Shown: positions 30,963 through 36,001, counted from the first letter of the stretch. The stretch is 36,001 bases of DNA from Nitrospinota bacterium (GCA_016212275.1 JACRGR010000004.1:1-36001); one strand, 5' to 3'. The notes: generated by a model from the sequence alone, not told the origin. A program made the numbers and translations.

Positions 30963-31976
30963 ATGAAATGCCCGAAATGCGCCTATAGCAGTTTCGAATA
31001 TTTGAACACCTGCAAAAAATGCGGTAACGACCTTACCGTTCACAAGACGGAACTGGGAATTGATTTTCCGCGCGCGGAGAGCTTGGGGATCATGGCGGTC
31101 ATCCGGCAGGAGACTGCGGGCATTTCCGCCGAGACGGCGGTTGCCGTTGCGGAAGAGGCCGAAGGCGGGGAAGTGCTTTCCGGCACGTCCGGCATCGAGG
31201 CGGCTATTACCGCCGATACCGATTTCAAGGACTTGGGCGCCGGCATTGACCTTGAAGAGCATGGGGACCTCGATCTTTCGGGAATCGGCGAATCCGCCGA
31301 TGAGACCGCCTCCATCAGCCTTCCTTCGATAGAAGAAGAGGAAATATCGCTCGGAGGCGAGGAAACCGCTCCCGTAGGTGATAAAGAGGAAGAGTTTTCG
31401 CTCGATTTGAGCGGATTGGAAGAAGCCGTTCCGGCTTCCGCCGCGGTGGAAGAGACGAAAGCGGAAGAAATGGATCTTGGCGAATTTGATTTGAGCGAAC
31501 CGGAGGCTGGCCCCGCTTCCGCCGCCGTGAGCGAGGAAATACCCGACATCGAGGAAAACGAACCCCATGTTGCCGATGAATCAACCGGTTCGCAGTTGGA
31601 AGGCGCTTTAGGCTTGGGCGAAGAAGACGAAACGGTGGTTCCGTCCGCCGAGCCTGCCGGTCTCGAAGATATTTCCTTGGATCTTGGCGGTGAAATAATT
31701 CCCGGAGAACCCGCCGAAGCTGAAAAGGTGGAGGATGCGGGGCTTGATCTGGGGGACTTGGACTTCGATGCGCATATGGAAGTGGCCGCGGAAGCGGCCA
31801 AAGAGGAACCCGCCCCTTCAGCCGATCTGGACGGGCTGGATCTCGATCTGGATCTCTCGGACATTGATCTTGACCATGTTGGCGGGGAACCGGAGAAGAA
31901 AGAGGGCAAGGAAAAGAAAAAAGAGGAAGATCTTGGCGACCTCGATATAAACCTCGACGCTCTGAAACTTGAATAG
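30963..31976 (+). CDS. zinc-ribbon protein with long acidic low-complexity tail
   Basis: Not a recognised family. The N-terminus is a compact zinc ribbon (Cys3, Cys6, Cys17, Cys20; MKCPKCAY then CKKCGNDL). The remaining 300 or so residues of the 337 are dominated by Glu, Asp, Ala, Ser and Leu, with loosely repeated units such as LDLSG, DLDLSDIDLD and EEEEISL, and no predicted membrane segment. Such a tail is likely disordered or forms short hydrophobic-acidic repeats. Start 30963 is set by the ribbon; an earlier in-frame start at 30894 would add an unlikely 23 residues. The RDD gene follows directly. Confidence 0.65.
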   Translation: MKCPKCAYSSFEYLNTCKKCGNDLTVHKTELGIDFPRAESLGIMAVIRQETAGISAETAVAVAEEAEGGEVLSGTSGIEAAITADTDFKDLGAGIDLEEHGDLDLSGIGESADETASISLPSIEEEEISLGGEETAPVGDKEEEFSLDLSGLEEAVPASAAVEETKAEEMDLGEFDLSEPEAGPASAAVSEEIPDIEENEPHVADESTGSQLEGALGLGEEDETVVPSAEPAGLEDISLDLGGEIIPGEPAEAEKVEDAGLDLGDLDFDAHMEVAAEAAKEEPAPSADLDGLDLDLDLSDIDLDHVGGEPEKKEGKEKKKEEDLGDLDINLDALKLE

Positions 31977-32442
31977 TCAAACTTCCACCGCCGTTTCCGG
32001 CGATATGCTTTTTGAAAGATCTCCGTCCTACGCCGGATTTATCCGCCGGTCTTTGGCGTTCGCCATAGATTTCCTCATCATTGCCTCTTTCATTTACCTC
32101 ACCGGGCACGGCGCGGTGTCAGTGGCTGGCCCGGAAGGGGCCGATGATTGGCGTCTATTCCGTTTGGCGGCGCTCATCGGATTTTTTTCCGCTGTTTTCC
32201 CCTTTGTATACTTCGTGTGGTTTCACGCCACCGGGGGCCAAACGCCGGGGAAGAAAGCGGTAGGCATCAAGGTGGCGGGGTACGGCGGCGGGGAGGTAAG
32301 TCCGGCGCGGAGCGTGTTCCGCACGCTTGGCTATCTGGTGTCGGCCCTGTTCTTTTTTCTCGGATTTTTGTGGCCCGTTTTCGACCGGCGCGGCCAAGCA
32401 TGGCACGACAAGATCGCCGGTACGGTAGTGGTGGAAATTTGA
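31969..32442 (+). CDS. RDD-family membrane protein
   Basis: Small inner-membrane protein of 157 residues with three hydrophobic helices and the RDD hallmarks FIRRSLAFAIDFLI, TPGKKAVGIKV and DRRGQAWHDKIAGT. Members are mostly of unknown function; some affect ion homeostasis. The start is either TTG at 31969, overlapping the previous stop, or ATG at 32005, which would still keep the first Arg-Asp motif. Bases 32269-32387 recur exactly at the right end of the window. Confidence 0.8.
   Translation: MNSQTSTAVSGDMLFERSPSYAGFIRRSLAFAIDFLIIASFIYLTGHGAVSVAGPEGADDWRLFRLAALIGFFSAVFPFVYFVWFHATGGQTPGKKAVGIKVAGYGGGEVSPARSVFRTLGYLVSALFFFLGFLWPVFDRRGQAWHDKIAGTVVVEI
32269..32387 (+). repeat. 119-base exact repeat, copy 1 (inside the RDD gene)
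   Basis: Identical base for base to 35883-36001 at an offset of 3614. This copy is in its natural context: the encoded stretch completes a normal RDD domain and the gene continues to its stop at 32442. Confidence 0.97.
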
Positions 32443-32563: not shown

Positions 32564-34438
32564 ATGGAAAAACGAATGGATATCCGGGCGGTCGTTCATT
32601 ATGCGTTCGCGGCGGCGATGATCTCATTATACGGCGGACGGGTCTGCTACCTCGTCGATACCCTGAACATCCTTACTTGGACCAAGTTTTTAGCACTGGT
32701 GTTCATCGGTGCGTTCATCGCGCGAAGCCTCCTATGGCAGCGCTTTGTGGGAAAGGCCCCTCCCGATGCCAAGCCGATGCACGGGTTCCTTGTTGACTTC
32801 AGCATGTCGCTGGCGATTTCGGCGTTCATCACCATCTATAACAGTTCCATGTACGGATTCGGCGCACACAGCGGCATGAAGGTGATGGTGGGCGTGGTCG
32901 CGTTCGGTTTTTTCATCGCTGTGGATAGCGCGTTGGATGAGGAAAGGAAACTGTTGCGGGAAAGCGCCGCCACGGGCAAGGAGCTTGGCGCCGCCAATAA
33001 ATTCATCTCATTGCCGGTCCGGTTCGCCATCGTCGGCACCACCACCATCGTGCTGGTCGTCACCATCGTATACCTGTTCTTCGCTCGGGACCTGTTGTTG
33101 GTCGGGGAAGGGCCATTCGACGATTACAATGCGATGACCGGCAGGATGTCGTCGGGGCTGATGCTACTTTGCGCCGTCGTTTTGGCCGAGGTCGTCAACA
33201 TGGTCATTTCCTATTCCCGCACCATGAGAATGCACTTCCGGCACCACACGGCGGTGTTGCTGGCGGTGGCGGAAGGGGATTTTGATCAGCGGGTCCCGGT
33301 GGCGACAAAGGACGAGTTCGGGCTGATGGCGAGATATACCAACCTCATGATAGACACCTTGCGTAGCCGGACCTCCGAAAAACAAACGGCGGAAGACGCG
33401 ACGAAATTGAAAGACCAGTTCGTTTCGCTGGTCGCCCACGACTTGCGGTCGCCGTTCAACGCCATACTCGGATTCCTGAAATTGGCCGCGCGCGACGAGC
33501 AAACCCCGCTATCCCCCAAGCACAAGGAGCTTGTCGGCAGGGCGATTACCAACAGCGAAATGCTGGTGAAGACCATCGACCACCTGCTGGACATCTCGCG
33601 GTTGCAGACCGGCAAAATGCAGGTGGAGCCCCGCTTTGTTTCTCCCCGCGACCTCGCCCAAACGGGTATGGACCAACTTGCCGGGCTTGCCGAGAAAAAG
33701 GGTATCGCCTTTATCAACTCGATCCCCGCGTCAACGAGGCTGTTTGCAGATCCGGTGCTGATCGGTGAGATATTCATCAACCTGTTCTCCAATAGCGTCA
33801 AGTTCTGCAAAACGGGGGACACCATTACGGCGTACGCCCCGCCGGACGCGCCCCTCGCCTTCGCGGTGCGCGATACCGGCATCGGCATCCCCAACGAGGT
33901 GTTGCCGGACCTGTTCAAACCGGAAGTGAAGACCACCTCGTCCGGCACCGCCGGGGAACAGGGGACCGGGCTTGGCTTGCCTTTCTGCGCCGATATCATG
34001 CGCGCCCACAACGGGGAAATATCCGTCAGTTCCGAGCCGGGATGGGGAACCGTTTTCATGCTCCGCTTTCCCGTGGTGGAGCCGGTGGTACTCCTTTGCC
34101 TTAACGGGCACCCGCCACGGCAGGCCCTCGTTGAATCCCTGCGCGCGTCGGGCATCCGCGCCGTCGAGGCGGCGTCACCGGACGAGGCGCGGTGGCTGGC
34201 GGTGGAGCATACGCCCCATCTGGCGGTCATTGATACGGACAACGCGGCATTCGGCGGGCTGGAGCTATTGCGCTCTTTGCGGTCGGACGGCCGGACCGCC
34301 CCGCTACGGGTGCTGGCCGTTACCGTTTCGGATAGCTTGCAGACCAAAATGGCGGTGTTGTCGTTGAAGGTTGTTGGTATCGTGGATGGCCGGGGCGGGG
34401 CGGATGAAATGCTGAAAAAGATCATCCGGCTCATATAG
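32564..34438 (+). CDS. membrane sensor histidine kinase with degenerate C-terminal receiver
   Basis: Inner-membrane sensor kinase, 624 residues from 32564. About six N-terminal membrane helices lead to a HAMP-like segment (VAEGDFDQRVPVATKDEFGL). The HisKA box SLVAHDLRSPFN has the phosphorylated His292. The ATPase domain shows NLFSNSVKF, DTGIGIP and GTGLGLPF. The last 120 residues look like a response-regulator receiver with an Asp in AVIDTDN, but the acidic pair near its start (reads LCLNGHPP) and the usual Lys-Pro are missing, so phospho-acceptance is doubtful. Start codon is unsure: ATGs at 32531, 32564 and 32576 are all in frame. No response-regulator gene is adjacent; the next genes are a sigma factor and its anti-sigma. 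Confidence 0.85.
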   Translation: MEKRMDIRAVVHYAFAAAMISLYGGRVCYLVDTLNILTWTKFLALVFIGAFIARSLLWQRFVGKAPPDAKPMHGFLVDFSMSLAISAFITIYNSSMYGFGAHSGMKVMVGVVAFGFFIAVDSALDEERKLLRESAATGKELGAANKFISLPVRFAIVGTTTIVLVVTIVYLFFARDLLLVGEGPFDDYNAMTGRMSSGLMLLCAVVLAEVVNMVISYSRTMRMHFRHHTAVLLAVAEGDFDQRVPVATKDEFGLMARYTNLMIDTLRSRTSEKQTAEDATKLKDQFVSLVAHDLRSPFNAILGFLKLAARDEQTPLSPKHKELVGRAITNSEMLVKTIDHLLDISRLQTGKMQVEPRFVSPRDLAQTGMDQLAGLAEKKGIAFINSIPASTRLFADPVLIGEIFINLFSNSVKFCKTGDTITAYAPPDAPLAFAVRDTGIGIPNEVLPDLFKPEVKTTSSGTAGEQGTGLGLPFCADIMRAHNGEISVSSEPGWGTVFMLRFPVVEPVVLLCLNGHPPRQALVESLRASGIRAVEAASPDEARWLAVEHTPHLAVIDTDNAAFGGLELLRSLRSDGRTAPLRVLAVTVSDSLQTKMAVLSLKVVGIVDGRGGADEMLKKIIRLI

Positions 34439-34456
34439 AGGGAGGCGGGGGAACGG

Positions 34457-34753
34457 GTGACGGAGGATATATCCTCGGCGCATTTCCTCGCAAAGGTCCG
34501 CGCGCGCGATGCCGCCGCCATCGAACGGCTGGTGCGCGCCTACACCGGGCATTTGCACAACGCGGCGCTGGGCATGGGGTTCGACGCGGAAGCGGCGGAG
34601 GAACTGACGCAAGACACGTTCATCACTTTATACGACAAGGCGCCCGGCTTTGAAGGACGTTCGTCGTTCTCGACCTACCTGTACGCGATCCTCTACCGCA
34701 AAGGGATGGAGAAGCGCCGCGAATACGCCAGGATGCGCAACACGACCCAATAG
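34457..34753 (+). CDS. ECF sigma factor, region 2 fragment (gene interrupted)
   Basis: Sigma-70 region 2 of an extracytoplasmic-function sigma factor: LVRAYTGHLHNAALGMGF, EELTQDTFITLYDKA (the -10 recognition helix) and FSTYLYAILYRKGMEKR. It starts at GTG 34457 behind a G-rich ribosome site, 18 bases past the kinase stop, and ends at a TAG (34751-34753) after 98 residues. The stop falls exactly in the linker between regions 2 and 4. One extra C in the CCC run at 34746-34748 would join it to the next frame as one protein of about 195 residues, the usual ECF size. So this is a frameshifted gene, a sequence error, or a split sigma factor. Confidence 0.75.
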   Translation: MTEDISSAHFLAKVRARDAAAIERLVRAYTGHLHNAALGMGFDAEAAEELTQDTFITLYDKAPGFEGRSSFSTYLYAILYRKGMEKRREYARMRNTTQ

Positions 34754-34761
34754 ACGATGTG

Positions 34762-35043
34762 ATGGCGGACCGGTTCGACGCGGCGGGTCATTGGGTTAAA
34801 CCGCCGCTCGGCCCCGAAGCATTCGTGCTTGCCGCCGAGACCGGGGCTATTCTTCGGCAATGCCTGGATACACTCACCCTTTCCCAACGGGCCGCGTTCG
34901 TGCTCAAGGAAGTGGAAGGGGAGGCGAGCACGGACATCTGTAATATTTTGGAGGTGAGTGTCAGCAATTTGGGAGTGCTGTTATACCGGGCGCGCAACCG
35001 GTTGCGTGAGTGCATTGAAAGCAAATATGCGGAGCAAAAATAG
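34762..35043 (+). CDS. ECF sigma factor, region 4 fragment (gene interrupted)
   Basis: Encodes the C-terminal half: a short linker (DRFDAAGHWVKPPLGPEAF) then region 4 with LDTLTLSQRAAFVLKEVEG and the helix-turn-helix ILEVSVSNLGVLLYRARNRL that binds the -35 element. It is in another frame from the region 2 fragment and begins nine bases after that stop, at ATG 34762 (or GTG 34759), without a ribosome site. Both halves look conserved and undecayed, so the break is recent, artificial, or tolerated. The anti-sigma gene follows without a gap. Confidence 0.7.
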   Translation: MADRFDAAGHWVKPPLGPEAFVLAAETGAILRQCLDTLTLSQRAAFVLKEVEGEASTDICNILEVSVSNLGVLLYRARNRLRECIESKYAEQK

Positions 35044-35310
35044 ATGGCGATGATGATGACGTGCAAGGAGGCGGTGGAAACGCTTGCGTCCAGCCGCGAG
35101 GTTTCCCTGTACGGGAAAATGAAACTGCGGTTCCATCTGCTGGTGTGCGGCCCATGCGCATGGTACAACCGGCAGCTGAAAGTGCTTAAAGCCGCAATCC
35201 GCACTCTATTCACCGTCTATTCGTCCCTTGCCGAAGCGGAACGCAAGCGGCTGGAGGACAGCATCATCGTGCGGCTCAAGGAAAAGGGGGCGGGAGATGA
35301 AGGGAAGTAA
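35044..35310 (+). CDS. zinc-type anti-sigma factor
   Basis: An 88-residue soluble protein with the anti-sigma zinc motif His31-x3-Cys35-x2-Cys38 (FHLLVCGPCAW) and an earlier Cys7 in MTCKEAVE. This pattern is that of ZAS-domain anti-sigma factors, which hold an ECF sigma inactive and release it under stress. It lacks a membrane segment, suggesting a cytoplasmic sensor. It starts directly after the sigma stop (TAGATG), the standard sigma/anti-sigma arrangement. Confidence 0.75.
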   Translation: MAMMMTCKEAVETLASSREVSLYGKMKLRFHLLVCGPCAWYNRQLKVLKAAIRTLFTVYSSLAEAERKRLEDSIIVRLKEKGAGDEGK

Positions 35311-35338
35311 TGTCGGTGCATGGTGCGCCGGTACTATC

Positions 35339-35344
35339 TATAAT
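35339..35344 (+). promoter_or_regulatory. consensus -10 element before the repeat-peptide gene
   Basis: A perfect TATAAT lies 20 bases before the ATG at 35365. No good -35 hexamer is visible at 16-18 bases upstream, so either an activator helps or this is chance. It suggests that the peptide gene can be transcribed apart from the sigma/anti-sigma genes. Confidence 0.3.
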
Positions 35345-35364
35345 CGTGGAAAGGGAAGAATAAG

Positions 35365-35673
35365 ATGAAACAGGCATCACGGTTCGTTCTGGCGGTGGTC
35401 ATTGCCTCTGCGGTGGCGTTTGCGGGATCAGCGTGGGCGGGGGAGAAAAACCCCTGCGGCATGGCGGGGGACAAGATGGAGCACCAAGGCATGAAGAAAA
35501 TGGGTGGCAAGAACCCCTGCGGCATGGCGGGGGACAAGATGGAGCACCAAGGCATGAAGAAAATGGGTGGCAAGAACCCCTGCGGCATGGCGGGGGACAA
35601 GATGGAACACAAAGGCATGAAGAAAATGGGTAACATGAACCCGTGCGGGAAAAATCCTTGCGGGGGCAAGTAA
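35365..35673 (+). CDS. secreted Cys/Met/His-rich repeat peptide, putative metal-binding
   Basis: A 102-residue exported protein: signal peptide ending at AWA (Ala25), then three tandem 21-residue repeats starting at residues 29, 50 and 71, each NPCGMAGDKMEHxGMKKM plus three residues, and a tail with two further NPCG units. Each repeat offers one Cys, four Met and one His, ligands favoured by copper and other soft metals. No database family recognised. It follows an ECF sigma/anti-sigma pair and precedes a cytochrome start, which fits a periplasmic metal buffer or cofactor-delivery role, by inference. Its 3' end overlaps the cytochrome start. Confidence 0.75.
   Translation: MKQASRFVLAVVIASAVAFAGSAWAGEKNPCGMAGDKMEHQGMKKMGGKNPCGMAGDKMEHQGMKKMGGKNPCGMAGDKMEHKGMKKMGNMNPCGKNPCGGK
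35449..35637 (+). repeat. three tandem 63-base coding repeats
   Basis: Units 35449-35511, 35512-35574 and 35575-35637 are nearly identical at the base level; the third differs at a few positions (gaacacaaa, and gtaacatg at its end). Near identity in third-codon positions means recent duplication or ongoing homogenisation, and copy number could vary between strains. Confidence 0.93.
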
Positions 35674-36001
35674 GCTTCATCCTACCCACCCTTTTTCTGG
35701 GGATCGCGCTCTCCTTCCCGTTACTCGCGGCGGGAGGGGAGCCGTCCCTCCTGGATCACTGGAAACGCCCCGCAAAGGCTGATGGCGGCCACTTTTCCTT
35801 GCATCCTGAAAAGTTCGGCTCGTGCCACGCGACGCAATATGAATCGTGGCGCGGCTCGCGCCATGCCCAAGCGGTGGGCATAAAGGTGGCGGGGTACGGC
35901 GGCGGGGAGGTAAGTCCGGCGCGGAGCGTGTTCCGCACGCTTGGCTATCTGGTGTCGGCCCTGTTCTTTTTTCTCGGATTTTTGTGGCCCGTTTTCGACC
36001 G
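35643..36001 (+). CDS. c-type cytochrome, 5' part, fused in frame to a copied RDD segment
   Basis: Begins at GTG 35643 or TTG 35658, overlapping the repeat-peptide gene. A signal peptide (FILPTLFLGIALSFPLLAAGG) is followed by HPEKFGSCHATQYESWRGSR and HAQAVG, a pattern typical of periplasmic multiheme cytochromes (gsCHaxqyesWrgSrHa). The heme motif reads FGSCH, with Phe where the first Cys of CxxCH belongs. From 35883 on the frame reads the RDD membrane-protein segment instead of cytochrome, and the frame leaves the window. The junction is likely artificial, so only the part up to about 35870 should be trusted. Confidence 0.5.
   Translation, partial: MREKSLRGQVSFILPTLFLGIALSFPLLAAGGEPSLLDHWKRPAKADGGHFSLHPEKFGSCHATQYESWRGSRHAQAVGIKVAGYGGGEVSPARSVFRTLGYLVSALFFFLGFLWPVFD
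35883..36001 (+). repeat. 119-base exact repeat, copy 2 (right edge of window)
   Basis: Identical to 32269-32387; the 12 bases before it also match except at two positions (35876, 35882). It interrupts a cytochrome reading frame and runs to the last base of the window, so its true length is unknown. An assembly join through short similarity (GCGGT-GGCAT-AAGG) is the simplest explanation; real segmental duplication is the alternative. Confidence 0.97.

Follow-up and report, generated by a model that had tools for sequence, protein, structure and literature searches.

In the Nitrospinota, genes for an extracytoplasmic function (ECF) sigma factor and a soluble anti-sigma factor with a Cys-His-Cys-Cys (CHCC) motif adjoin genes for secreted proteins that carry repeated Asn-Pro-Cys (NPC) motifs, and the latter are in turn associated with a multihaem cytochrome gene. 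We describe this neighbourhood from a contig of a Nitrospinota bacterium (GCA_016212275.1, JACRGR010000004.1); the entire contig, 36,001 bases long and one of 81 in a genome that is 83% complete, is the window analyzed here. Our best reading, which we hold tentatively, is that the pair forms a redox- or soft-metal-responsive ECF switch beside a periplasmic Cys-repeat/cytochrome module, and that this module is decayed or mis-assembled in the present genome. At the right end of the window, all on the plus strand, an RDD-family gene is followed by genes for a sensor kinase, a split sigma factor, the anti-sigma factor and a secreted peptide, and by the start of a cytochrome gene. The first-pass annotation had proposed the last five as one row; their order and coordinates stand, but it had not noticed that the sigma factor gene is split, that the haem motif is broken and that the contig end is chimeric.

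A profile search found the anti-sigma factor in 7 of 24 Nitrospinota genomes (those relatives with named records are groundwater metagenome-assembled genomes of this phylum). In 6 of the 7, namely the window and five related genomes, a secreted NPC-repeat protein is encoded within approximately 2 kb of it, in agreement with the earlier proposal that the sigma/anti-sigma pair and a secreted Cys-repeat protein would be neighbours in relatives. NPC doublets occur at about one locus per 2–3 Mb genome, and random placement of such a locus beside the anti-sigma gene is estimated at approximately 0.002 per genome; by our estimate, the association is far beyond chance. The NPC peptide genes follow the anti-sigma gene in G007 (the closest relative), G011 and G002, and a cytochrome gene directly adjoins in four of the six genomes (the window and these three). 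In G007 and G011, the cytochrome gene is in turn followed by genes for a thioredoxin and a DsbD/CcdA-like transporter. In the seventh genome, G001, the sigma factor is a region-4 fragment behind a transposase-like open reading frame (ORF), and no NPC doublet was found anywhere in that genome.

The anti-sigma gene (35044..35310, plus strand) abuts the stop codon of the sigma factor gene and encodes a soluble protein of 88 residues with a predicted zinc motif, C7-x23-H31-x3-C35-x2-C38. All four residues are invariant in six homologues, giving the family both an H-x3-C-x2-C motif and an N-terminal Cys. The protein matches the NCBIfam antisigmaE family with E=4e-10, which is below the family cut-off, and its predicted model (predicted local distance difference test score, pLDDT, 84) consists of three helices: helix 1 has C7 at its beginning, helix 2 contains H31 and helix 3 contains C38. 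RsrA binds zinc through its CHCC ligands and needs the N-terminal Cys for disulfide sensing and for release of the sigma factor upon oxidation (PMC4960319). To judge from the model, the window protein would resemble the anti-sigma factor of the RsrA/sigma-R system of Streptomyces in being small and soluble, in having the N-terminal Cys and the H-x3-C-x2-C motif, and in the placement of the ligands on the same helices. It differs in showing no significant match to solved anti-sigma factors by sequence or fold search, and in having a periplasmic Cys-repeat/cytochrome module as its neighbour. By analogy, the RsrA-like CHCC motif predicts that the anti-sigma factor senses disulfide stress or soft metals.

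A one-base frameshift at 34753/34759 divides the sigma factor gene into two. The first fragment (34457..34753, plus strand, start codon GTG at 34457) contains region 2 (Sigma70_r2, E=1.5e-11) and shares 67% identity with the first half of the G007 sigma factor; the second (34759..35043, plus strand), in a different frame that is open from 34654, contains region 4 (Sigma70_r4_2, E=1.6e-10) and is 64% identical to the second half. Both domains score above their cut-offs, but they do not share a single reading frame here, whereas the sigma factor is continuous, at 196–206 residues, in five relatives (G007, G011, G002, G017 and G006). Where the two fragments meet, the window has ATGCGCAACACGACC against ATGCAAAAACACGACC in G007, one base more. 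The two halves are equally constrained, with ratios of non-synonymous to synonymous polymorphism (pN/pS) of 0.28 for the first and 0.27 for the second, and the break is therefore recent, an assembly error, or bypassed. We rejected a programmed frameshift, since no phased slippery heptamer was found in the gene (AAAGGGA at 34700 is out of phase).

The secreted peptide of 102 residues (35365..35673, plus strand; repeat family D1) has a signal peptide, three 21-residue copies of KNPCGMAGDKMEHQGMKKMGG spaced by 63 nt (95% and 88% identity to the reference copy) and five NPC motifs, and it contains five Cys, 13 Met and three His residues, confirming the secreted Cys/Met/His repeat peptide predicted at first pass. 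Signal peptides and NPC motifs are common to the peptides of the relatives and the 21-residue unit is not; this Met- and His-rich unit arose by a recent triplication at the window locus. Across six NPC peptides, all have a signal sequence, and in five every Cys lies within an NPC motif. The peptide is similar to the MXKDX repeat proteins (TIGR02953) in being a small, secreted, Met/Lys-rich repeat protein; it falls outside that family with a score of 17.7 against a cut-off of 41. MXKDX proteins are not known to have the NPC cysteines. A TATAAT hexamer (35339..35344, plus strand), a candidate −10 box by consensus match only, precedes the peptide start by 26 bases, and TATAAT is present in 5 of 12 upstream regions against 0.79 expected, a number reached in none of 2000 shuffles.

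The 5' end of the multihaem cytochrome gene (35643..35870, plus strand) is 49% identical to the G007 pentahaem cytochrome over the first 85 residues. It starts inside the peptide gene and out of frame with it, overlapping by 31 bases; the corresponding overlap with NPC-coding DNA is 31 bases in G007 and 43 in G011, an arrangement that suggests translational coupling. The cytochrome start thus adjoins the peptide gene as first annotated, but it is not intact. Its first haem motif, the only one visible, is FGSCH, with a Cys-to-Phe change relative to the CGFCH or CGSCH of G007, G011 and G008, whereas the relatives' cytochromes have five CxxCH motifs, and a search for the remainder elsewhere in the genome returned only remote paralogues (at most 34% identity) and the window copy itself. 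Among known families, the G007 cytochrome matches cytochrome c554 (PF13435; 1BVB) in the PDB with E=7e-7 over residues 57–190, and the ExtKL-like multihaem cytochromes of NCBIfam below cut-off. The relatives' cytochrome differs from both in having five CxxCH motifs, a length of approximately 380 residues and a start codon inside NPC-coding DNA; the window copy is in addition truncated and lacks one haem Cys. From approximately 35870, the cytochrome DNA gives way to a copy of the RDD-family membrane protein gene (31969..32442, plus strand; PF06271, E=2e-25), which lies outside the unit and is the source of the duplicated contig end. The near-identical stretch begins at approximately 35869, with 14 near-identical bases ahead of an exact 119-bp copy of 32269–32387 (35883..36001, plus strand), and the contig stops at 36001. 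This is probably an assembly junction; most simply, the length of 119 bp would have been set by the assembler k-mer. The cytochrome reading frame beyond approximately 35870 therefore encodes RDD sequence, and any protein predicted across this junction is a chimera.

NPC repeats are also found on SoxA/TsdA-type monohaem cytochromes, and several of these genes are followed by a pentahaem cytochrome gene, both in Nitrospinota and in two genomes outside the phylum. In the latter (L140:1399-3023 and L142:46-1919), the NPC-bearing SoxA/TsdA-like gene overlaps the following five-haem cytochrome gene, and no sigma pair was seen adjacent to it. NPC repeats are further fused to YceI-like proteins at two loci (L041:5793-6632 and L141:1360-2361), at the C-terminus in one case and at the N-terminus in the other.

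Upstream of the sigma factor, the window encodes a sensor kinase of 624 residues (32564..34438, plus strand; an alternative, longer form could start at TTG 32516) with Pfam matches to MASE10, HAMP, HisKA, HATPase_c and a degenerate receiver. The annotated features of this gene hold: it is separated by 18 bases from the sigma start codon (approximately 30 bases in G007), and its receiver, aligned to solved receivers, lacks the acidic pair and the Lys of canonical functional receivers. The phospho-Asp position is Asp in the window and Glu in G007, whose kinase is 62% identical. In the G007 kinase (L039:3480-4769), HAMP, HisKA, HATPase and the pseudoreceiver are all present, and the MASE10 sensor domain is missing. 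The kinase adjoins the pair only in the window and G007 and is missing from the other four cassettes, contrary to the expectation that it would be a neighbour in relatives. We therefore rejected it as a constant member of the unit and regard it as an accessory of the sigma pair and a lineage-specific addition.

Homologues of the pair also occur in other lineages. In one of these, G367, the sigma factor is 45% identical and the anti-sigma factor matches with E=1e-15; the pair there (L128:1313-4761) is divergent from a Cys-repeat peptide gene (KNSCAGKDGCGQK) accompanied by MNIO, DUF2063 and DoxX genes, a complete bufferin-type cluster. Acidimangrovimonas has a similar pair, with MNIO and DUF2063 genes nearby. 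Related pairs are found near methyltransferase and DUF3641 radical-SAM genes (L043:5043-9872, L118:485-2324, L110:251-2318 and L044:5766-6836), which we take to be arsenic-related and which have the look of arsenic methylation or arsenosugar genes. The MNIO-linked and the methyltransferase/DUF3641-linked pairs are all compatible with a role in soft-metal or thiol stress.

The CHCC motif, these MNIO- and methyltransferase-linked homologues and the thioredoxin and DsbD-like genes of G007 and G011 together lead us to infer a disulfide or soft-metal switch. The first-pass suggestion of a metal- or redox-sensing unit is supported in part: these features speak for it, and the kinase is not a fixed member of the unit. 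In such a switch, the zinc-loaded anti-sigma factor would hold the sigma factor in the reducing cytoplasm; a thiol oxidant or a soft metal (copper, arsenic or similar) would attack the zinc site formed by C7, H31, C35 and C38, upon which the anti-sigma factor would let go, and the freed sigma factor would boost transcription both of the operon that encodes it and of the neighbouring periplasmic module. The NPC proteins, which are Cys-rich and in some lineages Met/His-rich, may in turn serve as soft-metal ligands or periplasmic thiols; in some relatives, the thioredoxin and DsbD-like transporter encoded nearby would keep them reduced. They would work beside cytochromes, the carriers of periplasmic electrons. 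The unit might, as suggested at first pass, protect periplasmic cytochromes. Sensing, sigma release, transcriptional control and metal binding are predicted steps, and any direct action of the sigma factor on the peptide gene is putative; even for the analogous rpoQ-gig pair of Cupriavidus, a direct link is not proven (PMC10304878).

Several observations weigh against this reading. Compared by fold with the PDB, the anti-sigma model had no significant match to a solved anti-sigma factor, and the sigma factor is interrupted in this very genome. No common ECF-type promoter was found ahead of 35365 and the other genes, where a search for a shared motif had been suggested: a two-block search did not rise above shuffles, and only the housekeeping-like TATAAT recurs. 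Finally, the sigma pair is missing from the NPC/cytochrome modules of G008, G012, G013 and G019 and from modules outside the phylum, indicating that the pair is an accessory of the module.

For the window alone, it is quite possible that no working circuit exists: the sigma factor would be a pseudogene or the contig end mis-assembled from thin coverage, with the peptide expressed from its own housekeeping promoter. Three defects, the one-base sigma frameshift, the haem Cys-to-Phe change and the chimeric end, fall within the last 1.3 kb, so that the cassette is damaged or mis-assembled in this region and may not function here as proposed; the TATAAT ahead of the peptide and the interrupted sigma factor of G001 point the same way. 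However, the peptide repeat array is intact and the second half of the sigma factor is as constrained as the first, so any decay would be very recent, and damage to this copy is compatible with the switch holding for the relatives. A functional two-piece sigma factor seems very improbable to us. Bacillus SigO/RsoA is a precedent for two-piece sigma factors that work together, and here the second ORF begins six bases past the stop codon, where reinitiation at GTG 34759 or ATG 34762 would yield regions 2 and 4 as separate polypeptides, both under constraint; yet the gene is single and continuous in all five usable relatives, and neither a Shine-Dalgarno sequence ahead of the second start nor a phased slippery heptamer was seen. 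A somewhat doubtful but serious contender makes the cytochromes primary: NPC sequences would be the tail of a SoxA/TsdA-type plus pentahaem electron-transfer module for sulfur or other respiration, detached as a free peptide in some lineages and merely tuned by the sigma pair, with metals beside the point. The fusions to SoxA/TsdA-type cytochromes inside and outside Nitrospinota, several followed by a pentahaem cytochrome, the modules without a sigma pair and the overlap of cytochrome starts with NPC-coding DNA in several genomes all favour it. It accounts neither for the free NPC peptides that have Met/His patches, those of the window, G002 and G006, nor for the YceI-like NPC proteins, and the MNIO-linked homologues of the pair point to metal stress instead.

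There are two further explanations. The kinase pseudoreceiver could bind the anti-sigma factor and free the sigma factor in a partner switch that dispenses with a response regulator, an idea favoured by the short gaps to the sigma gene and by the noncanonical receiver; we consider it very improbable, given the four cassettes without a kinase and the missing sensor domain of the G007 kinase. Least probable is that the unit is itself a bufferin system, i.e., one producing an MNIO-modified, copper-binding ribosomally synthesized and post-translationally modified peptide (RiPP). ECF/anti-sigma pairs accompany a secreted, Cys-containing precursor in Buf1 clusters (PMC12452194), an arrangement shared with the secreted Cys-repeat peptide here, and the peptide at 35365–35673 has the signal peptide and conserved Cys residues of bufferins, features that are not bufferin-specific. 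No MNIO (PF05114) was found in any of the 24 Nitrospinota genomes, with a positive Caulobacter control, and the peptide matches no bufferin-type Pfam family; for standard bufferins, membership was therefore rejected at the genome level, in a genome that is 83% complete. The comparison with bufferins made at first pass holds as an analogy only. Both the ECF-linked Buf1 clusters and the GIG operon of Cupriavidus (gigPABT-rpoQ-rsqA), which is induced by copper and gold, place an ECF sigma and anti-sigma factor beside a small secreted protein. Unlike these, the Nitrospinota unit has cytochromes instead of MNIO, DUF2063 and DoxX, a different peptide, and a soluble anti-sigma factor in place of the membrane-bound RsqA or NrsF-type proteins.

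The unit is best called a variant of the stress units formed by ECF sigma factors and soluble zinc anti-sigma factors, with a secreted NPC-repeat/cytochrome module as its neighbour; our literature query, narrow and thus a weak test, returned no description of such a unit or of the NPC protein class. More speculatively, and on balance unlikely in this full form, NPC proteins could be unmodified, MNIO-independent periplasmic buffers of soft metals or thiols that work with a dedicated pentahaem cytochrome; in Nitrospinota, they would be under the control of a disulfide-sensing ECF/anti-sigma pair like those found beside bufferin clusters elsewhere. As the sigma and cytochrome genes are damaged or mis-assembled here, the window copy is unsuitable as a model, and the relatives are better suited for study. 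What they offer, from an uncultivated phylum, is a link from a recurring class of secreted NPC proteins to a defined regulator and specific cytochromes, together with a concrete prediction, namely that the CHCC switch would sense disulfide stress or a soft metal.

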